Source: Ignavibacteria bacterium RIFCSPLOWO2_12_FULL_56_21 (lineage in GTDB: Bacteria > Bacteroidota > Ignavibacteria > UBA10030). From it: a DNA stretch of 47,930 nucleotides. A program made the translations under genes and the position numbers. Below are positions 14,197-42,225 of the stretch, piece by piece. Within the stretch, counting starts at the first letter, position 1. Every line of letters begins with the position of its first letter. The notes under the pieces are model-generated. The model was given only the letters and a program-made list of their open reading frames with translations. It was not told the DNA's origin and did no database searches. The stretch spans positions 1 through 47,930 of the forward strand of contig MHAK01000006.1 of NCBI GenBank assembly GCA_001802945.1. Reading direction: 5' to 3'.

Positions 14197-17100
14197 ATGA
14201 AAAAGGCGTACGTTGCATTTCATCACATGAATACTTTCTTTCGCATGTACAGTCTACATCGCCTCTCCCCCGTCATTCTTATCGCGAGTCTCGCTTTTGC
14301 CGCCGGATGTTCTCCTTCCGCTTCACGCGAACGACTCTGGACACTCGACGAGCTCGAAGTCGAGGTGACCGATACCACGCGCGAAGTGGCCTATACGAAT
14401 GGAGCGGCGGGATTCTACTACACAGAATCCAATGCACCCCAACGGAATGGCTGGCAGGGATGGCATAGTATGTCGGTTAGGATACTGGACGACTACCAGG
14501 TGGCCATCGACGGGAAACCGCTGGATCGATCCTCAGTCCACCTCGCCCGCGTTTGGCCGCATCAATTCACGCGGGCCTATCCACAAGGCGTACAGGAATC
14601 GGTCACGTTGCTCGATTCCGTCGACGCCTTAGTTGTGGAATTCGATAACATCTCCGGCGACGGATTCACCGCCGCACCGCTCTTTTCCGAGGCTGATACT
14701 TCGCAGTATATCATCGTTGAACGGGACGGCGCTTTGCTTGTCGCGCTTCGACGGCATCTCCATCGTACGCCGCGCGAAGACTTCCCTGTCTGGATCGGAA
14801 TGACCGTAGCAGGTGGATCCTCAATTCGCCGGGGTGATGGTGTAAGGAACGGACGCCATTTTGCTCCCGCTTCCCTCGACGCATCCCTTTCCGAAGACAA
14901 AGCCACTCTCCTCTTTGTCGCGGGAGATACCGAGGATGCAACATTGACGGCCCTCAAGGACGTTGCCGGCCGCGTTTCCGAATCGATTTCCCTGCGCAAA
15001 GCGCGGATGGAGAGAATCCTCAACGAAAGTCATTTCCGCTCTTCCAACGAACGGTTTGACAATGCTCTCGCGTGGGCAAAGCTTTCCATAAATTCGCTGA
15101 TCATGCGGCAGGGGAAAAGGGGGATCTTCGCCGGACTTCCCTGGTTCAGCAATTATTGGGGGCGCGATACGTTCATTTCGTTGCCCGGTGCGACTCTTGT
15201 GACTGGCAATTTCGATGATGCACGCGAGATCCTGGAATCGTTCGCCGCGTGGCAAATGACCGATCCGACAAGCCCGAACGAAGGCCGCATTCCCAATCTG
15301 GTCACCACGACGTCGACGTCGTATAACACGACGGACGGAACTCCCTGGTTCACGCTTGGTGTGTTCGACTATGTGAAATATTCCGGGGACACCGCGTTCG
15401 CAAGAAAAATGTTCCCAGTCCTCCGTTTGGCGATCGAGGGAGCACTGCGGCACCGGGTTGACAAAGAGAAATTTCTTACACACGGGGATGCTGAATCATG
15501 GATGGACGCAGTGGGCCAGGAAGGCCCCTGGAGCCCCCGGGGGAATCGGGCGAACGATATTCAGGCCCTCTGGTACCGCCAGCTCCTCGTTTCCACAGCC
15601 TTCGCCGAAGCTCTGGGTGACAGGGCAACCGCCGAGCGCTGGCATGCAATCGCACAAGAGCTCTTGTACAACTTCCAGGAGCGGTTCGTCGACCCGGACA
15701 GCAATATCATCTACGATCACTTGAATATCGACGGAACACCCGATCCCTCGAGCCGGCCGAATCAATTGTTTGCCCTGGACATTGTCGCAGAAACCGACAT
15801 ACGACAGAGGATATTTGGGACCATCACCAAAAGTCTCGTCTACGAGCACGGCGTTGCATCGCTCAGCCAGGACGACCCCAAATTCCATCCGTACCATCAT
15901 CACGAGCCCTACTATGTGCAGGATGCCGCGTACCATAACGGCATCGTCTGGACATGGTTGGCAGGAGCATGGATCAAGTCCGCCGTTGAATTCGGACAAC
16001 CCAATCTGGCCTATCGCGTTACGGAGAACATGGTCGGACAGATCCTCGAACGCGGGGCTGTTGGAACTCTTTCGGAATTGCTCGACGCTGCCCCGCATCC
16101 CGGCGAAATACAGCCTCGACTCTCCGGAACGTTCAGCCAGGCGTGGAGTCTCGCGGAGTTCATCCGCGTCGCATATCATTCGTATCTTGGCGTCTCCGTC
16201 GACGCCCCCAACAATCAGCTCTGGCTGATACCCCAGTTGCCCCATAGATTGAACGCAGCGACGTTTGACGTGGCCATCGGACGCACACGGGTGCGCATTT
16301 CGTATGAAGGGGAGGGCATGAAGGGAAGGATCGTTGTTCGGTCACTCAAACAGGATACACCTCTGAGCGTCAATTTCGGATGGCCCTTTGCCAATGCAAG
16401 GGGCAGAAGCGGCAGCTTTCTTCTCCGGCCGGGTAAGACAGTGGATATTGCGTTGACCGAAGCGTCGGCGAACACGACGTCCGACGACCCGACGATAAAC
16501 GTGGAGTCGGAAGTCCAATTCCTGACACAGTTCCGGGCACTGGCGAGTCTGGATCTCGCGCGTCCGCACGTGCGCCCGAACCTACAGTCACTCATGGGTC
16601 CGGGATATCCGCTGCTCTCCAACAACGATATCCAACGGGCGCTACACAACGGACATACCATCGTCGAGCGGTCCGACCCAATTGGGGATGACCGAGGTCC
16701 CGGCTCATACGCATATCCGACGACCCCGCATCTGAAGCCGGGAAGTCTCGACCTGACGAATTTCCGCGTCGCAACCGACGACTCAGTTGTTCAGTTTGAT
16801 TTCCAGTTCCGCACACTGTCCGATCCAGGCTGGCATCCGGAGTATGGATTTCAATTGACGTACATTGCCGTCGCCATCGATACTGACCACAAGGCCGGTT
16901 CCGGCAATCGCGACATTGGACACAACGCGCGATACCGGCTTCCTGCCGACCGTGCGTATGAGCGCATCGTCTATATCGGAGGCGGTGTGCGCATTGAGGA
17001 TCGCGGATCAGTCCTCGCAGAGTATCTGCCAGTCTTGGGGGATGAGCACCGTCCGCTCGGCACAGCCTCGACAGGAACGATCTCTTTTTCCCTGCCTACA

Positions 17101-17304
17101 CAATATTTCGGCGGGCGCCCGGACACTTGGCGGTTCACAGTCCTGGTCGGAGCGCAGGACGACCATGGAGGCGCGGGGATCGGCGATTTTAGGTCGGTTG
17201 AAGCCCAGGCGGGCGAATGGAACGGCGGTGGCCGACGTTCACCTGAAGATTCCAATGTCTATGACGTGCTGGTGACACAGGCCGAACACGCACACAAAAA
17301 GTAA
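14197..17304 (+). CDS. Lipoprotein amylo-alpha-1,6-glucosidase-like enzyme with C-terminal glucodextranase-type domain
   Basis: A 1035-residue exported glycosidase. The N-terminus is a lipoprotein signal (LIASLAFAAGC, lipid attachment at Cys38), so it should be membrane-anchored outside the cytoplasm. Residues about 60-260 form a beta-sandwich and about 285-700 an (alpha/alpha)6 barrel as in glycogen debranching enzymes. WFSNYWGRDTFISLPG, GDAESWMDAVGQEGPW and the acid residues there fit the active site. The last 260 residues match the C-terminal module of glucodextranase-like proteins (DPIGDDRGPGSYAYPTTP), which probably binds carbohydrate. Substrate is inferred to be an alpha-glucan or oligosaccharide. 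Starts at 14227 and 14245 are also in frame; no ribosome site decides between them. Confidence 0.85.
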   Translation: MKKAYVAFHHMNTFFRMYSLHRLSPVILIASLAFAAGCSPSASRERLWTLDELEVEVTDTTREVAYTNGAAGFYYTESNAPQRNGWQGWHSMSVRILDDYQVAIDGKPLDRSSVHLARVWPHQFTRAYPQGVQESVTLLDSVDALVVEFDNISGDGFTAAPLFSEADTSQYIIVERDGALLVALRRHLHRTPREDFPVWIGMTVAGGSSIRRGDGVRNGRHFAPASLDASLSEDKATLLFVAGDTEDATLTALKDVAGRVSESISLRKARMERILNESHFRSSNERFDNALAWAKLSINSLIMRQGKRGIFAGLPWFSNYWGRDTFISLPGATLVTGNFDDAREILESFAAWQMTDPTSPNEGRIPNLVTTTSTSYNTTDGTPWFTLGVFDYVKYSGDTAFARKMFPVLRLAIEGALRHRVDKEKFLTHGDAESWMDAVGQEGPWSPRGNRANDIQALWYRQLLVSTAFAEALGDRATAERWHAIAQELLYNFQERFVDPDSNIIYDHLNIDGTPDPSSRPNQLFALDIVAETDIRQRIFGTITKSLVYEHGVASLSQDDPKFHPYHHHEPYYVQDAAYHNGIVWTWLAGAWIKSAVEFGQPNLAYRVTENMVGQILERGAVGTLSELLDAAPHPGEIQPRLSGTFSQAWSLAEFIRVAYHSYLGVSVDAPNNQLWLIPQLPHRLNAATFDVAIGRTRVRISYEGEGMKGRIVVRSLKQDTPLSVNFGWPFANARGRSGSFLLRPGKTVDIALTEASANTTSDDPTINVESEVQFLTQFRALASLDLARPHVRPNLQSLMGPGYPLLSNNDIQRALHNGHTIVERSDPIGDDRGPGSYAYPTTPHLKPGSLDLTNFRVATDDSVVQFDFQFRTLSDPGWHPEYGFQLTYIAVAIDTDHKAGSGNRDIGHNARYRLPADRAYERIVYIGGGVRIEDRGSVLAEYLPVLGDEHRPLGTASTGTISFSLPTQYFGGRPDTWRFTVLVGAQDDHGGAGIGDFRSVEAQAGEWNGGGRRSPEDSNVYDVLVTQAEHAHKK

Positions 17305-18501: not shown

Positions 18502-19923
18502 TCACCTTGCACTCGCAAACCTCTGCTGCAGGACTTTGCTGATCAGCCAAACACAAGCGCTGACGCCCAGACCGGGCAACAGTGGTTCGATGCCCAAGGG
18601 ATATGCAGGACCGCCGGGGCCCGCGAACGCCATTCCCCACACAAGACACGACGTTGAAACGAAAGTACCCGATATCATGACCGCAAGAACTCCACCCGCC
18701 TGAATCCGCAGACGAGGTACATATGCGCCAAGCACCGGCAGCAACAGCCCCGGAATAAGGCACGTACCAAATGAGTACCAAAGCGTGACAACAGATGGCA
18801 TGAGCCACGCGAGAACAATGGATAATCCCGCTGCACCGCCAAGCCCCAGTCTTACCCAGCGTTGGATCAGCTTTTCATCGTTCCTCCCCGCCCATCTCGC
18901 CCCAATATCCCGTCCCGCCGTCAGTCCCGACAACATCAGCATGCTCGTCAACGTGGACATGACCGTAGCGAACAGGCCGACATAGAACAACCCTCGCAAT
19001 CCAACGGGAAGAATTGCGTTCGCGAGCGCCGGATACGACAGCGCCGCCTGGTCGATGCGTGGCAAGATCGCTCGAGCGTACAGTCCCGTGCTTACGGTCA
19101 TCGCATCGAACAGGAACCAGAAAAAGACCGACACGAGAACTCCGTTGCGTGCGGTTCTCTCATCCTTCGCGGACGCAGATCTCTGATGGAACGACGGATC
19201 GACCATCGTCCATAATGCAATGAGAAACCATACAAGTATGTACTGCGGTGATTGTCCCCCCGTCAACGTCAGATGTTCGGGTGGCACATTCTCGGTAAGA
19301 AAATCGAAACCGCCAAACGTCGTCACCGCAACGGCCACCATAACGGCGAACCCGAGATACATGAGGAGGAACTCAGCAACATTCGTCATCACCCCGGACC
19401 GAAATCCTCCAACCAGCAGGAACATGCCTGAAACGGCCGTCCCGATGCACAGATGGAGCAGGAGATCGCCGCCAAAGAACATCTGCGACAAGAGCCCGAG
19501 CATCAGCACATAGGGGGCGGGATTGACGAGCAGAAACGTCAGTATGGCGCCGCCGAGTGCCGCGGGACGGCCATACATGTCTTCGAATCGATCCGGGATG
19601 GACAGGACGTTGCTGCGGCGAATCCGCGGAGCCAGGAAGAAGGCGAACAGAACGGCGAACACGTAATACGGTAAGCCGAAGACGGTCCATGTGGAAAGGC
19701 CATGCGTGTATGAGAACTCACCGACGCCCAAGATTCCGCCGTACCATGTGGAAACCAGCGTCGCCACGAACACCGGCAGCGTCAGCGATCTGCCGGCGGC
19801 AAGGAATTCATCGCTTTCGTGGCCGCGGCGCGCCGTCCGAAAACCGATGACGAGTACAGCGACGGCAAACGCGACAATCAGAGCGATGTCGAATGGGGCG
19901 AGGGGAAACTGGGGCTGGTTCAC
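18502..19923 (-). CDS. Sodium:solute symporter (SSS family), candidate thiamine transporter
   Basis: A 473-residue inner-membrane protein with about 13 hydrophobic helices. The N-terminal region (DEFLAAGRSLTLPVFVATL, then STWYGGILGVGEFSY) is typical of SSS sodium symporters. The gene is the last of three on the minus strand behind a TPP riboswitch, after a TonB receptor and thiamine pyrophosphokinase. By context it would carry thiamine, or a precursor, across the inner membrane. SSS-family proteins have been predicted as thiamine-pathway transporters before (ThiV), whereas Bacteroidetes usually use PnuT here. The substrate is an inference. A 188-base spacer with a repeat tract separates it from thiN, so it may have its own promoter. 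The start is GTG without a clear ribosome site. Confidence 0.83.
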   Translation of the reverse strand: MNQPQFPLAPFDIALIVAFAVAVLVIGFRTARRGHESDEFLAAGRSLTLPVFVATLVSTWYGGILGVGEFSYTHGLSTWTVFGLPYYVFAVLFAFFLAPRIRRSNVLSIPDRFEDMYGRPAALGGAILTFLLVNPAPYVLMLGLLSQMFFGGDLLLHLCIGTAVSGMFLLVGGFRSGVMTNVAEFLLMYLGFAVMVAVAVTTFGGFDFLTENVPPEHLTLTGGQSPQYILVWFLIALWTMVDPSFHQRSASAKDERTARNGVLVSVFFWFLFDAMTVSTGLYARAILPRIDQAALSYPALANAILPVGLRGLFYVGLFATVMSTLTSMLMLSGLTAGRDIGARWAGRNDEKLIQRWVRLGLGGAAGLSIVLAWLMPSVVTLWYSFGTCLIPGLLLPVLGAYVPRLRIQAGGVLAVMISGTFVSTSCLVWGMAFAGPGGPAYPLGIEPLLPGLGVSACVWLISKVLQQRFASAR

Positions 19924-19977
19924 GAGGCAGGCGATTGAATACTGTGACAGCGAAATGAGATCGCCTCAAAAGCATTT

Positions 19978-20025
19978 TCCACGAATGCACACGAATGTGT
20001 GTGCTGCTTCACGAATTCTGTGACA
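19978..20025. repeat. Intergenic word tract (CCACGAATGCACACGAATG)
   Basis: CACGAAT words occur three times, with GTGTGTGC mirrored to GCACAC. The tract lies in the spacer between thiN and the symporter gene. Confidence 0.55.
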
Positions 20026-20111
20026 TACTTAAACGAGGGGTCACAACCAGCCTTCTTTACTTGGCAACCTTGGCGGTCCATCTTTTCTTGAATTCTGGAC
20101 ATCTTCTGCTG

Positions 20112-20777
20112 TCACACCTTGCCCCTCGACCGGTTTGCTGCCGCTTCTGAAAGCCGGAACAACAGAAGCGTTCCCCTCCGGACCTTAATGTCCACCGGAC
20201 TCTTCACGACAACATTGCTTGTGCTTTCCCGCTGACCGAGGGCAAGTGACTCATACTTCAGTTCCCATTTCAACCCGCGTGTGATGATTCCCTCGCACAG
20301 CGTCAGTGGAAGCAGCGACACGATCGTCCCCAAAGGCGCCTCGAATGTCAGATCGGACCCGACATACGTGATGTCGCCGTCCAAGTCGTACATGGATATC
20401 CTTGCCTTGCGGGAGTATTTCGCCAGAGCGCTGAGATTGCCGATCGTATGGTCCAGACGTCCCCCCGTCGCACCGAAGATCCGGATGTCTCTAAATCCTT
20501 TTCGGATCAGCCACGTCAGGGCCTTTTCCAGGTCCGTGCTATTCTGATCGGCGATCCTTCGCGCCGTGACGCCGCTGAATTTCTTGATCGTTTGCTGGAG
20601 AATGGAATCCAGGTCGCCGATGATAAGGTCGGGCGTCAACCCGAACCGCGCTGCCGTGTTCGCGCCACCATCGGCGCACACGAGCGATCCGGCATCCGTT
20701 AGATGCTTCGACAGAAGTCCTTTGGGGGGAGGATAGCCATTGGCAAGGATGACGGCATGTGATGTGGGCGAAGCCAT
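20112..20777 (-). CDS. thiN: Thiamine pyrophosphokinase
   Basis: A 221-residue cytoplasmic kinase that converts thiamine directly to thiamine pyrophosphate with ATP. Family motifs are all present: ADGGAN (35-40), GDLDS (54-58), DQNSTDLEKA (77-86) and GATGGRLDHT (102-111), followed by the C-terminal beta-sandwich that binds thiamine. AAGGA seven bases upstream supports the ATG. It follows the TonB receptor by 71 bases and precedes the SSS symporter, all downstream of a TPP riboswitch. That context says it acts on imported thiamine. The Bacteroidetes thiamine salvage operon with the same kinase next to a TonB receptor is the closest known arrangement. Confidence 0.95.
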   Translation of the reverse strand: MASPTSHAVILANGYPPPKGLLSKHLTDAGSLVCADGGANTAARFGLTPDLIIGDLDSILQQTIKKFSGVTARRIADQNSTDLEKALTWLIRKGFRDIRIFGATGGRLDHTIGNLSALAKYSRKARISMYDLDGDITYVGSDLTFEAPLGTIVSLLPLTLCEGIITRGLKWELKYESLALGQRESTSNVVVKSPVDIKVRRGTLLLFRLSEAAANRSRGKV

Positions 20778-20814
20778 TGTCGTCCTTCAGGGATCAGAAT
20801 TCGGCAAAATACTT

Positions 20815-20845
20815 GCTGCAATGGTCACCAACCGGTTCTTGCAGC
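20815..20845 (-). terminator. Intercistronic hairpin between receptor and thiN
   Basis: Perfect 7-bp arms (GCTGCAA / TTGCAGC) sit 3 bases after the receptor stop codon. On the minus strand a short T-rich run (TATTTT) follows. It could be a leaky terminator or an mRNA-stabilising end that sets the ratio of receptor to kinase. Confidence 0.45.
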
Positions 20846-20848
20846 CTA

Positions 20849-23119
20849 CTAAAACCTCAACATCATGCCAAGAACATAGTTCCGCTCGGCTGACGGGAAA
20901 AACGCTTCCCCTTCGCCGCTTAAAGTATAGAGCTTGTTCAGCGCGTTCCGCACTTCACAGCGCAGCGTCATGTCTGCGAAACCGGCAAATGGAATTCGCC
21001 ACGTGCCCTCCAAATTGACAATCCTGTACTCATCGTTCCGGTTATCGACGTTTTTGAAATTGTCGGTGTAGAACGGACCGACGTATTTCGCGGTCGCGGC
21101 TGCACCGATTGTTCCGTCATCATACGACGCGCGAAGGTTCATCAGAACATCTGGAAAGCCTGCGATCGGATTCTCATCAAGCGCGACTGTCGAATCATCG
21201 ACGATCACACGATATCGCACAAGACGGTTCCGGGAATAGGTGAAATTTCCGGAAAGCGACCAGCGATCATTCAGTTTGACTGACCCGTCAACTTCCAGTC
21301 CAATATGCCTGGTTTTGTCCGCATTTCCCGTGACCGGCTGACCAAAAATATCCACCTGGCCGCTTTTTACCAGTTCATCAGTGAAGTCCATCCAAAATAG
21401 GTTCGCAGTGAGATGAGCATTCGCTGACGTCCATCCTCCTCCCATTTCGATGTCGAGCAGCCGCTCAGGCTTTGCCAGAGGTCGTGAAAAATCGTAACGG
21501 ACCACTCCCCCCGTCGTGTCTGCCGCGAACTCCGGAGTAGCTCCAAAGAATGCGTCCTCTGCTGCGTAATGATTTCTCATCCTTGGCTCGCGGGATGTGT
21601 AGCCGATGAATCCATAAACATGCAGATGTTCCGTCAGATTGACGTTCGCACCCACACGCGGGTTTACAAACCAGTACGGCACGGACCATGTGTGCCCAAG
21701 AAACCTCTCGTCCCGCATACCATACCGATTGTAAACAAGCTGTACATCGGCGGTGACGGCAACTCTTTCATCCATCCTGTAGACCTCGTGGACATATGCC
21801 GAAGCAATGTCCCTCAGCCCGCGATATTCATAGATCCGTGTATCAGGCGCATATGCCGATGACGGATACTGTGAGGCAAAGAGAATCTGCCCGTAATGCA
21901 GCGACCTGTGCATCCTCAACTCCAGCCCCAGAGTCATCGTTCCGTCTCCATGGTCGATCTCCACGCGAGGGAGTATACCCCACTGCCTGTTCTCCACCGA
22001 CCCGCGGATCAGCATCGTTGGATATGATGTGACCCCGAATGTCGAGTCGTATCCCACGTGTCGCTGAAACCAATCGACGGCGGGCGGAGTGTATGATAAC
22101 CAGTCACCGTCATAATCAAAGTAGCCGTCCCCCTGGACAAAGAACGCCGTCGTGTGCAACGCCAACCGCTCACTGAGCTTCCAATCGTGGATGATCTCAT
22201 AATGCGGCTGTGAGAACCATTCCCGCGACTGAGATTTCTGTGGAACGGCGTATTCAAACGACACACCGGTTGAATCGTATTTCCAGTCGCTGAAGTTCGT
22301 CCTGCGCAAGTTCACGTCGTTATTGTATGACTTCGGCAGACCCTTGTATGCCAATCCGTCCGTGATCGGCCCTCCAAAGAGATGTATGCGGGTGACCATA
22401 TCGCCGTCAAATCGTGCCGCACCGAGAAAGTACGAATGCATGTTGACCCAGGCGAGCTCACGGTATCCGTTCGTGCTCAGCCGTCCCAAACGCCCGTAGA
22501 ACATGTAGGTGCCATCGACGAGCCCGGAGTTCACGCTGAGCGCCAGTTTTCGCGTCGCCAGATCGGTCCTTCCCTTGCCTGCAAGTTCTTGAAAACCGAA
22601 CGCCGACTCAAACGTGACCCCCGGATTCGACGCGAAAGGATTGGCGATGAGATTGACAGAGCCGCCGATCGCAGGGGGACCGTAGAACGCACTTCCCGCG
22701 CCTCGCTGAACCTGCACGACTTGCGTGGACGCCAGGAGGTCGGGAAAATCGATCCAGTAGACATTATGGTCTTCCGGATCATTCTGCGGAACTCCATTGA
22801 TCATGACAGAGATGCGCCGCTGGTCAAATCCCCGCAAGTTGATGTAATTGTAGCCGATACCCGATCCGTTCTCTGAATAGCTCGTCATCGACGGAAGGTC
22901 GGACAAGAGAACGGGAATGTCCTGCGTGGAGTACGTCCTCTGAATCTGTGTGCGGGTCAGGTCGCTGAATGGTATGGGGGAAAGTCTGTGAGTAGCCGTC
23001 GTGGCTGTCACGACAACCGGGCTCATACGATATACTGTATCCTGACGCACGTCGGACTCTTGGGCAAATGCAATGCCCGTCATGAAAAGCAATGCGGTGC
23101 TAAGTCGAAGTTGGATCAT
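20849..23119 (-). CDS. TonB-dependent outer-membrane receptor, probable thiamine uptake
   Basis: A 756-residue outer-membrane transporter. It has a signal peptide (MIQLRLSTALLFMTGIAFAQ), a likely TonB box (SPVVVTAT), a plug domain (about 45-160, with YNYINLRGFDQRRISVMING) and a 22-strand-type barrel ending in a C-terminal Phe (YVLGMMLRF). It uses proton-motive force through TonB/ExbBD, which are not in the window. A TPP riboswitch with a terminator lies directly upstream and thiN directly downstream, so the cargo is inferred to be thiamine or a phosphate ester of it. There is no SusD-like partner. The family alone would also fit siderophores or cobalamin; the riboswitch is what argues against them. 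Confidence 0.9.
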   Translation of the reverse strand: MIQLRLSTALLFMTGIAFAQESDVRQDTVYRMSPVVVTATTATHRLSPIPFSDLTRTQIQRTYSTQDIPVLLSDLPSMTSYSENGSGIGYNYINLRGFDQRRISVMINGVPQNDPEDHNVYWIDFPDLLASTQVVQVQRGAGSAFYGPPAIGGSVNLIANPFASNPGVTFESAFGFQELAGKGRTDLATRKLALSVNSGLVDGTYMFYGRLGRLSTNGYRELAWVNMHSYFLGAARFDGDMVTRIHLFGGPITDGLAYKGLPKSYNNDVNLRRTNFSDWKYDSTGVSFEYAVPQKSQSREWFSQPHYEIIHDWKLSERLALHTTAFFVQGDGYFDYDGDWLSYTPPAVDWFQRHVGYDSTFGVTSYPTMLIRGSVENRQWGILPRVEIDHGDGTMTLGLELRMHRSLHYGQILFASQYPSSAYAPDTRIYEYRGLRDIASAYVHEVYRMDERVAVTADVQLVYNRYGMRDERFLGHTWSVPYWFVNPRVGANVNLTEHLHVYGFIGYTSREPRMRNHYAAEDAFFGATPEFAADTTGGVVRYDFSRPLAKPERLLDIEMGGGWTSANAHLTANLFWMDFTDELVKSGQVDIFGQPVTGNADKTRHIGLEVDGSVKLNDRWSLSGNFTYSRNRLVRYRVIVDDSTVALDENPIAGFPDVLMNLRASYDDGTIGAAATAKYVGPFYTDNFKNVDNRNDEYRIVNLEGTWRIPFAGFADMTLRCEVRNALNKLYTLSGEGEAFFPSAERNYVLGMMLRF

Positions 23120-23192
23120 GGCGCAGGTTCTCGATTATAATTTGCAATGATTCGTGATGAAGAGCATGACCTCTTGTTCGGAAGCAATCGAC

Positions 23193-23241
23193 CAAAAAAA
23201 AGAAAACCGTTTTCCGAAAGGGGCACCCGATCGAAAAACGG
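23193..23241 (-). terminator. Riboswitch-controlled intrinsic terminator
   Basis: On the minus strand an 11-bp stem (CCGTTTTTCGA / TCGGAAAACGG, one G-U pair) is followed by TTTTCTTTTTTTT. It begins about 20 bases after the TPP aptamer and ends 73 bases before the receptor start. That is the standard layout of a transcription-attenuation expression platform. Confidence 0.88.
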
Positions 23242-23261
23242 CTCAAGAAGAATTGGTTTCC

Positions 23262-23348
23262 GGTTTCCTACGCTGGCATGATCCAGGTCAGGTTCGAGGG
23301 TATGTTCTCAGCTCCCGATGTTTCGGGAACACCCCTAACGGTGAAAGG
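23262..23348 (-). promoter_or_regulatory. TPP riboswitch (THI element)
   Basis: Read on the minus strand, the conserved core is unmistakable: GGGGTG, then GAGCTGAGA, ACCCTCGAACCTGA, CTGGATCATGCCAGCG and AGGAAA. Terminal bases (TTTC near 23345 and GAAA near 23265) can close the P1 stem. In the variable arm GTTCCCGA and TCGGGAGC can pair. The riboswitch binds thiamine pyrophosphate and, with the terminator just downstream, should stop transcription of the receptor, thiN and symporter genes when TPP is plentiful. Confidence 0.96.
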
Positions 23349-23430: not shown

Positions 23431-23970
23431 CTATTTGACCAGCATCAATTTTCTTGACTGCGCCAGGTCGTCCGCCTTCAACCTGTAGATGTACACACCA
23501 GAAGATACGTTCTGACCGGCGTCGTTTCGTCCATTCCACACCGCTTCATACCGCCCGGGTCCCTTCTCCTGATCCACCAGCGTGGCGACTCGCTGACCTA
23601 GAATGTCATAGAGAACTAGTGTCACACCGGCACGACGTGGAATATCGAACCGAATGGTCGTCGAGGGATTGAATGGATTCGGGTAGTTTTGCGAAAGCGA
23701 GAATGATACCGGTATTTCGGGAAGATCTTCTACGCCGGTCTGCATTCCGGGCGCGTAGACGAACGAGCCGAATCCGATCTGCAGATCGACGTTCTCCCCG
23801 CTCATGGCCCCGACCAAAGACTGTCCCGCCGTGGAATAGACCGAGATCGGGGGAACGGACGAGATTCCGCCACCGGACCCGAACGCAAACCATTCCAACC
23901 GGGTTTGCGCCTGCAATTCAAGTCCGCACGCAGAAACGACTGCTGCCAATATGATCCTGTTCATGTTCAT
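23431..23970 (-). CDS. Small exported protein with type IX secretion sorting domain
   Basis: A 179-residue protein with a signal peptide (MNMNRIILAAVVSACGLELQAQ). A short beta-rich segment follows (residues 23-80, including YSTAGQSLVGAMSG). Then comes a T9SS type A C-terminal sorting domain (about 91-179: NYPNPFNPSTTIRFDIP, YDILGQRVATLVD, SGVYIYRLKA, RKLMLVK). It should be exported by Sec and then carried over the outer membrane by the Por/T9SS machinery, with the tail removed. The mature part is tiny, so it may be a scaffold or surface marker. It lies 10 bases after the collagen-like gene and is surely co-transcribed with it. The function is unknown. Confidence 0.88.
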   Translation of the reverse strand: MNMNRIILAAVVSACGLELQAQTRLEWFAFGSGGGISSVPPISVYSTAGQSLVGAMSGENVDLQIGFGSFVYAPGMQTGVEDLPEIPVSFSLSQNYPNPFNPSTTIRFDIPRRAGVTLVLYDILGQRVATLVDQEKGPGRYEAVWNGRNDAGQNVSSGVYIYRLKADDLAQSRKLMLVK

Positions 23971-23980
23971 GTGCGGCGCT

Positions 23981-25213
23981 TCAATTCAGTGAATAGAATC
24001 CGTACCACGATGCGTCCGTACCGCTGCTTCGGAACAAATCGACACGAGACCACTTGTCGATAATCTTCACCATGAGCGTGAGCCTATGAGCATCCCCGAT
24101 TTCCAACACCCGAGACGATTCCTGAGTGACAGAGCCGGATGCTCCTCCCTCCGTCGATCCACCCTGCCAAAGAGCAGAAAATGTTGCGTTGACTGATTGA
24201 CCCGACGGGATCACGAGCTGCATGGTCGAAACGGAATTTGTCCGCACCAACTGCACATGTTCGGAATTCGAACTTGCCCCTGAATACAGTACGAATACTG
24301 TGGCTCCTTCAGCCGATTCCAGCGACGAGATGGGTACGGAGCTGAGTTGTCCCTGGGGTCCTGTCGGACCGGCCGGACCCGGAGGACCGGGAGCTCCCGA
24401 AGGTCCTTGTGGTCCTGGTGCGCCGCTGTCCCCTTTGGCCCCTTGAATTCCTTGCAGCCCTTGTGGACCTTGATCACCCTTGTCGCCTTTGGGTCCTTGA
24501 ACTCCCTGCGGACCTTGAGGGCCTGTGTCGCCGGGATCACCCTTGTCCCCCTTTTGTCCCTGAAGCCCTTGAACTCCTTGCGGACCCTGATCACCTTGAT
24601 CACCTTTGGGTCCCTGAATCCCCTGCGCACCTTGAGGACCTGTGTCGCCCGAATCGCCTTTGTCGCCCTTGTCCCCCTTGGACCCTTGAAGACCTTGAGA
24701 ACCTTGAATGCCCGCTTCTCCTGGATCACCTTTTGGTCCCTGCGGCCCAACGACTCCTGGTTCTCCATTTCCTCCTTGAAGTCCCTGCGGACCCGGAGGA
24801 CCTGCTTCACCCTTGGGCCCCGGCGGGCCAGGATTGGAAGCGGAGTCCGCCACACGGGCATGTGCGGCCGTGAAACTGAACGGAACGGATGCGAAGGGGA
24901 CTCGTGGAGAGAGTACGGTGCCGTTGAATACGATCCCGAGCGAATCAATACCGTCAAACCTCAGCTCATTCGGGAACGGCCCGAGGAGTGTGCTGAACAA
25001 TCCGTTGCTGACAGGAAGGGAGATTTGCTGGCTCGTCCAAACATCCTGCGAGCCGTTGAAAAGTGTAAAGACGAACGTGGCTTGTCCGTTGAACGGTTGT
25101 CCGTCCGTTCGCACAATGCCTTGATAGGAGATGACGCGGGGAACTTGGGCTGCCACCGGAAAGACAAAACCGATGAGAGCGAGAAGTGCGGCGACGGGGA
25201 AGCGAAAGTTCAT
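23981..25213 (-). CDS. Exported collagen-like (Gly-X-Y repeat) protein
   Basis: A 410-residue protein from the ATG at 25213, chosen because GGAGG precedes it and a signal peptide ([16 protein letters not shown], cut after VAAQ) begins there; an earlier in-frame start would add 26 residues. Residues 25-125 form a globular domain ([19 protein letters not shown]) seen at the N-terminus of bacterial surface and fibre proteins. Residues 129-290 are 54 unbroken Gly-X-Y triplets rich in GPQ, GDK, GPK and GDQ, forming a collagen-like triple helix about 46 nm long by usual geometry. A C-terminal beta-rich head (about 292-410) probably drives trimerisation. It has no sorting domain of its own and precedes the T9SS-tagged gene by 10 bases. 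Confidence 0.9.
24344..24829 (-). repeat. Coding Gly-X-Y repeat tract
   Basis: This stretch encodes the 54 collagen triplets. At DNA level longer units of about 60-100 bases recur ([10 protein letters not shown]-type and GDTGPQG-type blocks), suggesting growth by duplication and a potential for length variation between strains. Confidence 0.85.
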
Positions 25214-25633
25214 GCGAACCTCCAGGAAAAAGAAGATTGGTTCGTCTCTCGAACTCGCCCAACATCCTATCACAAGACTCTCCGCCCACACATATCCGAG
25301 AGCAGCAACCCCCGTTGCCGTGCTTCCCCTGACGACTTAGCAAATCCAGGGGCCAAAATGAACTAATACCAATGTGAAAACATTGTCCTGTATCACATTG
25401 GGACATGAGAATCCGAGCGATGTGAGTACGATCAACACAGTGAATGTTGGCGAAAGAAATAGAAGATCATAAGCCCCCATCAATAAATGACTAATCCGCT
25501 TTAGGTTGCGTCGAGCCTAATGGAACGTGAGTAACCTTTGCATTAAATCTATCTTGCGGGAGTGCGGGGAAGGAAGTGAAGAGGAACGACCTGTGGAATT
25601 ACCGTTGCAGGGGCTCTTATCGCAATTGGGATT
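25214..25633. other. 420-base gene-free region upstream of the collagen-like gene
   Basis: No supportable gene lies here. It holds two inverted repeats: CCCCTG/CAGGGG (25326-25352) and CCAATGTGA/TCACATTGG (25369-25401, 15-base spacer, with AATGTgaaaACATT nested inside). It must include the minus-strand promoter of the collagen-like/T9SS pair, and the inverted repeats are candidate regulator sites. Confidence 0.6.
25369..25401. promoter_or_regulatory. 9-bp perfect inverted repeat, candidate operator
   Basis: Arms CCAATGTGA and TCACATTGG are perfect reverse complements 15 bases apart, about 155 bases upstream of the collagen-like start codon. The TGTGA/TCACA halves resemble CRP/FNR-type sites (TGTGA-N6-TCACA), but the spacing is longer than that family's usual six. 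Confidence 0.4.
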
Positions 25634-26578
25634 CTACACGATCAATTGACTCACATGCTGCTCAACGCTTTCTGCGAGTGCGTGCATATCGTACCCGCCC
25701 TCCAACACAGAGACCACGCCGCATGTCGTCGATGTGGCAACCGCATCTCTCAACATTCTCGTGAGCATAGCAAAAGTTGTCGAATCAAGATTGATGTTCG
25801 CGAGCGGGTCACTTTTGTGGGCGTCAAATCCTGCCGAGATCATAAGAAGTTGTGGCCCAAATTTCTTGAGCGCCGGTCTGATTGTATCACGGAAGGCCGC
25901 CGCGTATTCCTTTTCGCCGCTTCCCGGAGCCATGGGACAATTGACCGTAAAACCCGTGCCAGGGCCTTCGCCCACTTCCGAGGCAGATCCAGTTCCGGGC
26001 CATAAAGGATACTGATGAAGGCTCACGTACAGGACAGTCGGGTCATGCCAGAAGATCTCTTGTGTCCCATTTCCGTGGTGCACATCCCAATCCACGATCG
26101 CCACCCGTTCTACCCCATGCTTCTTCTGGGCGGTGCGGGCGCCGATTGCGATATTGTTGAAAAGGCAGAATCCCATTGCGCGCGAGGTCATGGCATGATG
26201 TCCCGGAGGCCGAACCGCGCAAAAGACATTTCTCTTTTCCTTTCCGCACGCGACTTCGACCCCCTGAAGCACACTCCCCACTCCGAGCAGCGCTGCGCGC
26301 CATGATTCTCTGCAAACGCGCGTATCTCCTTCGTCCAGCAGGGTTTCCCCTTCGGCAATGCTCTTCTGCACCCATTCGACGTAGTGCTTCGCATGAGCAA
26401 GCGTCAGGTCATCGATCTTCGCCTCCTCCGGCCTGGCGTGATCAAGTTTCTGCCACAGGTCCGTGGTCATCAAGTGGGCAACCATCGTCTCCAGGCGTTC
26501 CCGGCGTTCCGGATGTCCGGGACCGGTGTTATGGAGCAGCGCATCGGGATGGTAGATGAATGAAGTGCGCGATGGCAT
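25634..26578 (-). CDS. Histone deacetylase family protein (class II / acetylpolyamine amidohydrolase-like)
   Basis: A 314-residue zinc-dependent deacetylase. Active-site residues are complete: His127-His128 in RPPGHHA, the metal-binding Asp163/Asp165/His167 in DWDVHHGNG, Asp252 in SAGFDAH, and the transition-state Tyr in LEGGYD near residue 296. In bacteria such enzymes deacetylate polyamines, acetoin-pathway enzymes or other small amides; histones are not implied. The start lies 13 bases after the stop of the ABC permease, so it is the third gene of that transcript. The shared transcript hints at a link between the exporter and an acetylated compound, which is only inference. Confidence 0.92.
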   Translation of the reverse strand: MPSRTSFIYHPDALLHNTGPGHPERRERLETMVAHLMTTDLWQKLDHARPEEAKIDDLTLAHAKHYVEWVQKSIAEGETLLDEGDTRVCRESWRAALLGVGSVLQGVEVACGKEKRNVFCAVRPPGHHAMTSRAMGFCLFNNIAIGARTAQKKHGVERVAIVDWDVHHGNGTQEIFWHDPTVLYVSLHQYPLWPGTGSASEVGEGPGTGFTVNCPMAPGSGEKEYAAAFRDTIRPALKKFGPQLLMISAGFDAHKSDPLANINLDSTTFAMLTRMLRDAVATSTTCGVVSVLEGGYDMHALAESVEQHVSQLIV

Positions 26579-40155: not shown

Positions 40156-41274
40156 TTAATGTTCCGGCTGAAACTTCTCAACTTCCTCCAGGATCGTCTT
40201 CACGATCTCTTCTTCTTTCACCCGCTTCACCATTTCCCCTTTTCTGTAGAGGATGCCCACACCCTTCCCGGCCGCAATGCCGATGTCCGCGGCGCTCGCT
40301 TCTCCCGGACCGTTCACAACGCAGCCAAGGACGGCGATGGTGACGGGCTTTTTTACGTGCGCAAGCTTTTCCTCGAGTTGCGCCATGATGCCGAACAGGT
40401 CCACTTCCAGCCGCCCGCATGTGGGGCATGCGATGAGGTCCACGTTTCGGGACGCCAAGCTGAGAGAGCGCAGGATCTCCTTGCCTACCTCCACTTCTTT
40501 GACCGGGTCGTCCGTGAGAGAAACACGGATCGTGTCGCCGATACCTTCTGCCAGAAGCGTTCCGATCCCCACGGATGACTTGATCGTGCCAACGCGCGTT
40601 GTCCCGGCCTCTGTAACGCCGAGGTGCAGGGGGATATCGGTCTTTTCGGCCACCAGTCGGTAAGCCTCGACCATCAGCTTCACATCCGTCGATTTTACGG
40701 AAATAACGATGTCGTGAAAATCGAATTCACTGCAAATGTCCACGTGCCGCATTGCACTTTCGTACAGTGCTTCCGCTGTCGGATACCCGTGCTTCTGCAG
40801 AATATCTTCCTCCAGCGAACCGGAATTCACGCCGATGCGGATCGGAATGCCCCGTTGTTTCGCAGCTGTCAGCACCTGGCGGATACGGTCTTTGGAGCCG
40901 ATGTTCCCCGGGTTCAGGCGAACCTTGGCGACGCCCGCTTCGATCGCCCGCAGTGCGAAGACATGATTGAAGTGTATGTCTGCGACGATCGGCACGGGAG
41001 ATTGCTTCACGATCGCCGCCATCGCCTCGGCCGCTTCTTTATCGTTGACTGTGACGCGAACAAGATCGACGCCGGCGTCCGCAGCCGTTCTGATCTGACT
41101 GACGGTACCGGCAACATCGTCCGTCTTGGTCTTCGTCATGGTCTGTACGGAAATGGGCGCATCGCCTCCCACTTTCACGCCTCCGACGGAGACCTGCCGC
41201 GTCTTCCTTCGCAGACCATCCCGAAATGTACCTACCCGATATGTCGCATGCTTCTGTTCGGTTGCTTCGATCAC
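40156..41274 (-). CDS. ispG: 4-hydroxy-3-methylbut-2-en-1-yl diphosphate synthase
   Basis: A 372-residue iron-sulfur enzyme of the non-mevalonate isoprenoid pathway. Cluster ligands are visible: Cys283 and Cys286 in ACPTCGR, Cys318 in LGCVVNGPGEA, and the fourth ligand Glu325. The TIM-barrel part has IRIGVNSGSLEED and GVTEAGTTRVGTIKSSVG. Its length fits the short bacterial form, without the plant insertion domain. The GTG start has GGAG about eight bases upstream. The dxs, ispC and ispH genes are not in the window. Confidence 0.95.
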   Translation of the reverse strand: MIEATEQKHATYRVGTFRDGLRRKTRQVSVGGVKVGGDAPISVQTMTKTKTDDVAGTVSQIRTAADAGVDLVRVTVNDKEAAEAMAAIVKQSPVPIVADIHFNHVFALRAIEAGVAKVRLNPGNIGSKDRIRQVLTAAKQRGIPIRIGVNSGSLEEDILQKHGYPTAEALYESAMRHVDICSEFDFHDIVISVKSTDVKLMVEAYRLVAEKTDIPLHLGVTEAGTTRVGTIKSSVGIGTLLAEGIGDTIRVSLTDDPVKEVEVGKEILRSLSLASRNVDLIACPTCGRLEVDLFGIMAQLEEKLAHVKKPVTIAVLGCVVNGPGEASAADIGIAAGKGVGILYRKGEMVKRVKEEEIVKTILEEVEKFQPEH

Positions 41275-41293
41275 AGATCACTCCAAAGGTGTT

Positions 41294-41328
41294 CGTCTCA
41301 ACGACTCAACTACTCATCGACTCAATAC
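41294..41328. repeat. Intergenic word tract (CGACTCAA / ACTCAAT)
   Basis: CGTCTCAACGACTCAACTAC and its continuation contain five near-copies of an ACTCAA word. It fills nearly the whole 54-base spacer between the rhomboid and ispG genes, ending at the rhomboid stop. Confidence 0.55.
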
Positions 41329-42225
41329 TCAATTCAGCTTCTTGCTTGCCTCAAACAGTATCTTCTTCTCCTCCTCCGTCAGGCTCTGATAACCACTCTG
41401 GCTGATCTTGTCGAGGATACCATCGATCTTCTTTTGCGTGTCGGGCTCGATTGTCGGCGGCTTCGGCTTTCCGTCGTGAATATCGAAGACCTTCGCATCG
41501 ACGACATTGCCGGACGGACGCTTCGACGCCGTCGTAAACGTCCGCTTCCAGTCGGCAAACACCCTGCTGTTCGAACCAAATCCGCCCCGATCATACACGA
41601 CAAACACATAACCCGCAAGCGCGCCGCCGAGGTGTGCGAGGTTCGCCACGTTCCCTTGCTGTCCCACGGACATCACGCCCATGACGATAAGGAACATCAC
41701 AACGAATTTCACGCGAACCGGCACGGGAAGAGGGAACACGAAGATCTCCCGGTCGGGAAACATCGTGGCAAACGCAACCATAACGCCGTACACCGACCCC
41801 GAAGCGCCGACGGTCGGCCCAATCGCTTGTGTCGGGTCGAAGATCGGAGACAGGGTCAATTGGGCCAGGCCGGCTACAACGCCGCACATAAGATAGAAGA
41901 TGAGAAACTTGCGGGCACCCCAAATGTTCTCGACTTCCATGCCGAACATCCAGAGGCCGAACACCATGTTGAAGAAGAGATGCCAGAACCCCGCGTGCAT
42001 GAACTGATAGGTGATGAGCTGCCAGGGGAAGAACCCGTGTCCAAACGGCATCAACCCGAAATAGACGTTGAGAACATCATCCAGCGGCGCACCGTTAAAC
42101 CGGAACGATCCGAAAAACGTCATCAACACGAATGCCCCTGCGTTGATGATGAACAACATTTTGATCACCGGAGGGAATAACGAAAACCCGCCGAAGAACG
42201 GGGGACGATAGAAGTTTGCGGACAA
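41329..42225 (-). CDS. Rhomboid-family intramembrane serine protease
   Basis: A 298-residue inner-membrane protease with six helices. The catalytic dyad is Ser142 in GASGSVYG and His198 in NLAHLGG; the WR-loop region is ENIWGARKF. The first-helix segment QFMHAGFWHLFFNMVFGLW has the conserved His/Asn oxyanion residues. The C-terminal 35 residues (KIDGILDKISQSGYQSLTEE) are a soluble helical tail often found on rhomboids of this group. It cleaves single-span membrane proteins; substrates are unknown. The start is a TTG with weak upstream signals. Confidence 0.92.
   Translation of the reverse strand: MSANFYRPPFFGGFSLFPPVIKMLFIINAGAFVLMTFFGSFRFNGAPLDDVLNVYFGLMPFGHGFFPWQLITYQFMHAGFWHLFFNMVFGLWMFGMEVENIWGARKFLIFYLMCGVVAGLAQLTLSPIFDPTQAIGPTVGASGSVYGVMVAFATMFPDREIFVFPLPVPVRVKFVVMFLIVMGVMSVGQQGNVANLAHLGGALAGYVFVVYDRGGFGSNSRVFADWKRTFTTASKRPSGNVVDAKVFDIHDGKPKPPTIEPDTQKKIDGILDKISQSGYQSLTEEEKKILFEASKKLN

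Follow-up and report, generated by a model that had tools for sequence, protein, structure and literature searches.

PnuT is the usual inner-membrane transporter of thiamine. In Bacteroides, where PnuT carries thiamine, the OMthi-pnuT-tnr3 operon brings together a TPP riboswitch, a TonB receptor, an inner-membrane transporter and a TPP-forming kinase (PMC5613172). The operon described here has likewise these four kinds of parts, but its gene order is different and a sodium:solute symporter (SSS) stands where Bacteroides has PnuT; B. thetaiotaomicron, moreover, also makes thiamine de novo, unlike the organism studied here (PMC5613172). The same set of parts as in our operon is found in another phylum, in the Caldithrix abyssi locus Cabys_3975-3977 (Front Microbiol 2017), which has a TPP riboswitch upstream of a TonB receptor, together with an SSS protein and a thiamine pyrophosphokinase (TPK) (PMC5317091). 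There the locus is proposed for thiamine transport and its receptor, reported to be similar to the Bacteroides thiamine receptor OMthi (BT2390), is named as the likely thiamine transporter; exclusivity with PnuT or ThiC, breadth of the family and residues are not covered in the portion consulted (PMC5317091). An earlier note on this DNA had called the combination of a symporter with a TonB receptor and TPK unusual; the Caldithrix locus is a precedent for it. Two Calditrichia loci among the relatives that we collected (L095 and L114) have the TPP-TonB-TPK-SSS arrangement in the order seen here.

SSS proteins named ThiV or SSSP are known as candidates for thiamine or HMP transport (PMC4260697, PMC2211319) and have been described from SAR11, Methylobacillus and algae (PMC11452348, PMC4260697). 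Like the protein studied here, they are PF00474 symporters with links to thiamine metabolism and to a TPP riboswitch, and in our operon too a TPP riboswitch stands at the head. HMP as the cargo of SAR11 ThiV has been proposed and partly measured (PMC11452348), whereas the symporter in our operon is predicted to carry thiamine. The gene set of the operon (PMC5317091) and the existence of thiamine-tied SSS proteins are already known. The new points are the exclusion of PnuT and ThiC, the exchange with PnuT in place, the breadth of the family, the lack of ThiE and the mapping of residues. A literature search that covered few subscription papers returned no paper on the exclusivity of this SSS protein with PnuT.

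Operon layout and probable riboswitch control

The stretch of DNA analysed (the window, 47,930 nucleotides) comes from a genome of 95.1% completeness. The parts of the operon follow one another on the minus strand in the order TPP riboswitch, predicted terminator, TonB receptor, TPK and SSS protein:

23248..23346, minus strand: TPP riboswitch aptamer (RF00059), 63.1 bits, model positions 1-105 complete
23202..23244, minus strand: intrinsic terminator (predicted) in the expression platform of the riboswitch; stem of 14 bp, with a U-tract reaching about 23194
20849..23119, minus strand: TonB-dependent outer-membrane receptor, probable thiamine receptor (PF07715 and PF00593)
20112..20777, minus strand: thiamine pyrophosphokinase (TPK/thiN; TIGR01378, PF04263 and PF04265)
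19924..20111, minus strand: TPK-SSS spacer, 188 bp
18502..19923, minus strand: sodium:solute symporter (SSS; PF00474) with a GTG start, predicted inner-membrane Na+:thiamine symporter

The riboswitch was identified with cmscan as a full-length match above the gathering score (54.3 bits; E 3.7e-10). Nothing else in the window matches Rfam, and the genome, at its 95.1% completeness, has no second TPP riboswitch. The receptor has both a plug (PF07715, 58.5 bits) and a barrel domain (PF00593, 87.4 bits). A phmmer search of the PDB with this protein gave the colicin I receptor as its sole match, which is uninformative for the ligand; homologues of the receptor in relatives sit 3' of a TPP riboswitch with either the SSS protein or PnuT downstream. 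TPK scores 162.6 bits against the TIGR01378 cut-off of 76.4 and contains both PF04263 and PF04265, which places it in this equivalog. The three minus-strand genes that the earlier note had read behind a TPP riboswitch are hence borne out by the Rfam, Pfam and NCBIfam scores, the coordinates and the order.

The hairpin at 23244-23202 has a folding energy of -22.4 kcal/mol, which is 5.3 SD below that of mononucleotide shuffles. The 3' side of the aptamer can alternatively pair with the 3' arm of the terminator, forming a competing duplex of -10.9 kcal/mol, and a terminator-like hairpin between aptamer and receptor is present in 24 of 39 related loci. The hairpin with its U-tract, the competing pairing and the recurrence in these loci together point to control of the whole operon by transcription attenuation. 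According to this mechanism, the aptamer would fold when TPP is high, the downstream terminator would form and the operon would be switched off; when TPP is low, the operon would be transcribed. The operon is predicted to be one transcript, with TPP as its repressor.

The earlier note had also suggested that the spacer upstream of the symporter leaves room for a separate promoter. A scan covering sigma-70-like sites found none in the 188-bp TPK-SSS spacer, and the median TPK-to-SSS distance among 80 named relatives is 43 bp. We have therefore set aside an own promoter for the symporter. The spacer holds a stretch of 27-29 bp with further copies on two more contigs of this genome.

Several other genes of the window deserve mention. 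On the minus strand, the product of positions 23981-25291 contains long Gly-X-Y repeats of collagen type (GPPGPQG...), and a type IX secretion sorting-domain protein (23431-23970) lies directly downstream of it. A histone-deacetylase-family protein (25634-26578, minus strand; PF00850, 327.8 bits) has no NCBIfam match. On the plus strand, a protein of 1035 aa (14197-17304) contains a GDE_C amylo-alpha-1,6-glucosidase domain and a C-terminal glucodextranase binding module, and a 518-aa open reading frame (40624-42180) has no Pfam match.

Linkage to TPK and exclusion of PnuT and ThiC

The symporter, TPK, the PnuT family and ThiC were searched in 247 genomes drawn evenly from the phylum. A symporter orthologue is present in 72 of them, one in each genome (73 matches, as the copy of G004 is split over two contigs), and TPK is present in all 72. 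In 59 of the 73 matches the symporter directly follows TPK, that is, it starts at most 250 bp from the end of the TPK match on the same strand. A scan of GTDB genomes gave at least 577 confirmed relatives. The best 80 of these, picked by similarity and therefore favouring near relatives, were examined as named loci; their record titles include Ignavibacteria, Bacteroidetes, KSB1, Kryptoniota, Armatimonadetes, Neomarinimicrobiota, Calditrichia, Acidobacteria, Balneolaceae, Elusimicrobia and one Ectothiorhodospiraceae. Among these best 80 of at least 577, TPK lies directly upstream of the symporter in 71 of the 78 loci with room for it, and the full TPP-TonB-TPK-SSS order is found in 46 of the 64 loci with more room. 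Recurrence of the riboswitch-receptor-TPK-SSS arrangement in dozens of genomes is far beyond chance. The earlier note had proposed such a count of neighbours and had named orthologues lying mostly away from thiamine genes as the contrary outcome; in both samples the orthologues mostly adjoin TPK (59/73 and 71/78), often under a TPP riboswitch.

PnuT-family proteins above cut-off are found in 102 of the 247 genomes and ThiC in 87, and neither occurs in any of the 72 symporter genomes of this sample. PF04973 (PnuT) has no match in the genome of the window, and ThiC and ThiE are absent from it at its completeness of 95.1%. G152, one of the symporter genomes, does contain a PF04973 match, but this falls below the threshold and is interrupted by an internal stop. 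Fisher's test of PnuT or ThiC against the symporter gives P = 1e-53, a value uncorrected for kinship, and as the genomes are related the counts do not represent independent events. In the class to which the window belongs, all 61 genomes have exactly one of the three, namely the symporter (52), PnuT (7) or ThiC (2). Among 50 further symporter genomes, none has a PnuT-family protein and 48 have no ThiC, which is present in the other two. Hence the absence of PnuT alongside the symporter, which the earlier note had expected, holds in both sets (0/72 and 0/50), and that of de novo thi genes holds for ThiC in all of the 72 and in 48 of the 50. Eight of the 247 genomes (G079, G125, G133, G147, G181, G195, G199 and G237) have none of symporter, PnuT and ThiC, and another thiamine route is therefore expected there.

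Switches are seen even within families: three genomes with the symporter and one with PnuT in family f3, one and four in f6, and one with the symporter and one with ThiC in f13. The PnuT genome of f3 (G093) has an operon of a TPP riboswitch, a TonB receptor (51% identical to that of the window), TPK and PnuT, the last in the slot which the symporter occupies in its f3 relatives. Exclusion between symporter and PnuT, together with exchange in place, is, judged from genome sequences, the pattern of non-orthologous replacement. As the Bacteroides PnuT carries thiamine (PMC5613172), this pattern points to the same cargo for the symporter.

Family, fold and likely cargo of the symporter

The symporter scores 81.2 bits against PF00474 (gathering score 22.8), which is above the cut-off of the superfamily, and 91.1 bits against the narrower model TIGR00813, which is below the curated cut-off of 184. 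We have filed it as an SSS protein on the basis of the Pfam cut-off, the predicted fold and the putative Na2 site. No named NCBIfam equivalog fits this PF00474 protein. Weak matches to TIGR02119 (PanF), TIGR02121 (PutP) and others could suggest a pantothenate, proline or sugar carrier whose position in the operon is incidental, and the earlier note had mentioned proline and sugars as other possible solutes. However, the scores are far under the curated cut-offs (57.9 vs 328.05 bits for PanF and 39.5 vs 515.5 for PutP), for which reason we have rejected these annotations, and both the linkage to TPK and the exclusion of PnuT would need to be matters of chance; such a carrier is hardly credible. 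The SSS proteins retrieved from plasmid records stand in unrelated contexts, at 21-29% identity. The STWYGG and DPxFHQR motifs are found, among the several SSS genes of the genome, in the symporter of the window only.

The AlphaFold model of the symporter (pLDDT 91.1) has the SSS (LeuT-type) fold, and its nearest fold is that of the human choline transporter CHT1 (Z 41.5, rmsd 3.1 over 462 residues), with SGLT and SiaT behind it at Z of about 33. Choline transporters are the closest solved structures by sequence as well. Residues of CHT1 (from PMC11589582) were mapped onto the symporter by HMMER alignment and their conservation was scored over 26 orthologues. The Na2 hydroxyl ligands of TM8, S346/S347 in CHT1, correspond to S323, which is Ser in 26/26 orthologues, and T324, which is Thr or Ser in 26/26; residues at the Na3 site, in contrast, vary among the orthologues. 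From the choline cage (W62, Y91, W141, W254 and W406), three aromatics are kept as W60, Y86 and W382. The Na2 ligands and these three aromatics are common to CHT1 (SLC5A7), the bacterial sfCHT and the symporter, whereas the Na3 ligands and the cage residues W141 and W254 are not conserved, the latter two being replaced by N134 and D242. Across the orthologues the first position is Asn, Ser or Thr and the second Asp, and Trp occurs at neither of them in any of the 26.

The nearest structures, the retained aromatics and the transport of choline by a bacterial CHT homologue (PMC13220886) would be compatible with a choline-type (CHT-like) transporter to which TPK is merely a neighbour. Alanine mutants of W141 and W254 in CHT1, however, lose transport (PMC11589582, PMC13220886), and with these two essential cage residues missing we have rejected this identity. 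Transport of choline would also leave the linkage to TPK and the TPP riboswitch and the exclusion of PnuT unexplained, and the locus has no choline context; we consider this reading very improbable. A quaternary-ammonium cage which is partly kept, opened and made acidic would instead suit the thiazolium and the aminopyrimidine of thiamine. D242 itself is not diagnostic and was discarded as a thiamine-specific residue, since Asp is present at this position in other SSS proteins too (L143 and L146, for example).

The signature described for ThiV/SSSP comprises Tyr78 in TM2, Asp139 in TM3 and Phe254 with a His in TM6, in SiaT numbering (PMC11452348). In a comparison made by description and not by alignment, Tyr86/87 and F245-H246 of our symporter fit this signature, the F-H pair of TM6 resembling Phe254-His of ThiV, but the TM3 stretch contains no Asp and a counterpart of Asp139 is not seen. 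A rival reading has HMP, the pyrimidine precursor, as the cargo in place of thiamine. It is favoured by the ThiV of Ca. Pelagibacter, an SSS protein under a TPP riboswitch which is a likely HMP transporter (PMC11452348).

The occurrence of ThiE bears directly on this alternative. ThiE is the TMP synthase, and a cell without it cannot use HMP; TPK, on the other side, has thiamine as its substrate. A strong ThiE match is absent from all 52 SSS genomes of the class, one of which (G236) has one joined weak match, and within the class ThiE is clearly present in the two ThiC genomes only. The organism of the window, with no ThiE, could not make thiamine phosphate from HMP, and the kinase partnered with the symporter acts on thiamine; in G093, moreover, the operon slot of the symporter is occupied by PnuT, and the relative of that protein in Bacteroides is a thiamine carrier (PMC5613172). 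ThiE was also found in eight symporter genomes outside the class, which speaks for HMP to some extent, and use of the precursor is possible in those eight. For the symporter of the window we regard HMP as improbable; its cargo is most likely thiamine itself.

Taking these observations together, the locus is very probably an operon with which a thiamine auxotroph salvages the vitamin and in which an SSS protein has taken the role of PnuT; we infer the substrate of that protein from the genomic and residue evidence given above. Thiamine would pass the outer membrane through the TonB receptor. The SSS protein, powered by Na+ bound at the conserved Na2 site, would then carry it over the inner membrane; the imported thiamine would be turned straight into TPP by TPK, with the symporter as the substitute for PnuT at the inner-membrane step. 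The full route from uptake to TPP put forward in the earlier note stands in its parts, order, linkage and exclusivity, while thiamine as the cargo and Na+ as the driver are predictions, the literature search having returned no transport assay of any member of the symporter family. If this assignment holds, a particular protein family would account for the inner-membrane thiamine step that had been missing in Ignavibacteria-type bacteria and in many uncultured lineages without PnuT and ThiC, and auxotrophy for vitamin B1 could thereby be read from the genomes of these lineages. The assignment also supplies concrete residues with which the possible recognition of a large aromatic cation by an SSS protein could be probed.

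Unlinked and divergent members of the family

In families f6, f7 and f10 the riboswitch and the receptor are kept and the symporter lies elsewhere, beside housekeeping genes and not beside TPK or a riboswitch. The four symporters of these families that are in the tree form one clade (support 99) which is sister to the TPK-linked rows, and the operon has therefore probably broken up in this lineage, as judged from tree and gene positions.

A second clade (L091, L092, L098 and L101; support 100) adjoins genes for a class-I fumarase and a SIS-domain protein, the neighbours of L098 being judged by gene sizes only. Among the aligned rows, exactly these four have the TM6 motif DPxFHQR changed to (A/S)PxFHQF, with the loss of Asp242 and Arg248. 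The confinement of the altered motif to this clade and its fumarase and SIS neighbours raise the possibility that most of the family carries thiamine and that the substrate has switched in some unlinked clades such as this one. However, the genomes of the clade (G263 and G278-G280) are also without PnuT and ThiC and still need a thiamine route, so that these symporters may carry thiamine as well; we put the switch forward tentatively, as somewhat less probable than its opposite. It is a refinement which does not conflict with our explanation of the operon in the window, and it leaves room for close homologues with another cargo.

Whether the relatives as a whole make up a broad family of Na+ symporters for intact thiamine, distinct from the HMP-carrying ThiV, we regard as evenly balanced. 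Such a family would extend over at least eight phyla by record title, would have a cation pocket like that of choline transporters and would repeatedly have replaced, or been replaced by, PnuT or de novo synthesis.

Armatimonadota have a DUF1559 (PF07596) gene with a mostly pseudopilin-like product (L075 231-986, L077 201-1097 and L094 4392-5093) between the TPP riboswitch and the TPK-SSS pair, at the position of the TonB receptor gene in other phyla. The protein might be a surface protein for the capture of thiamine.
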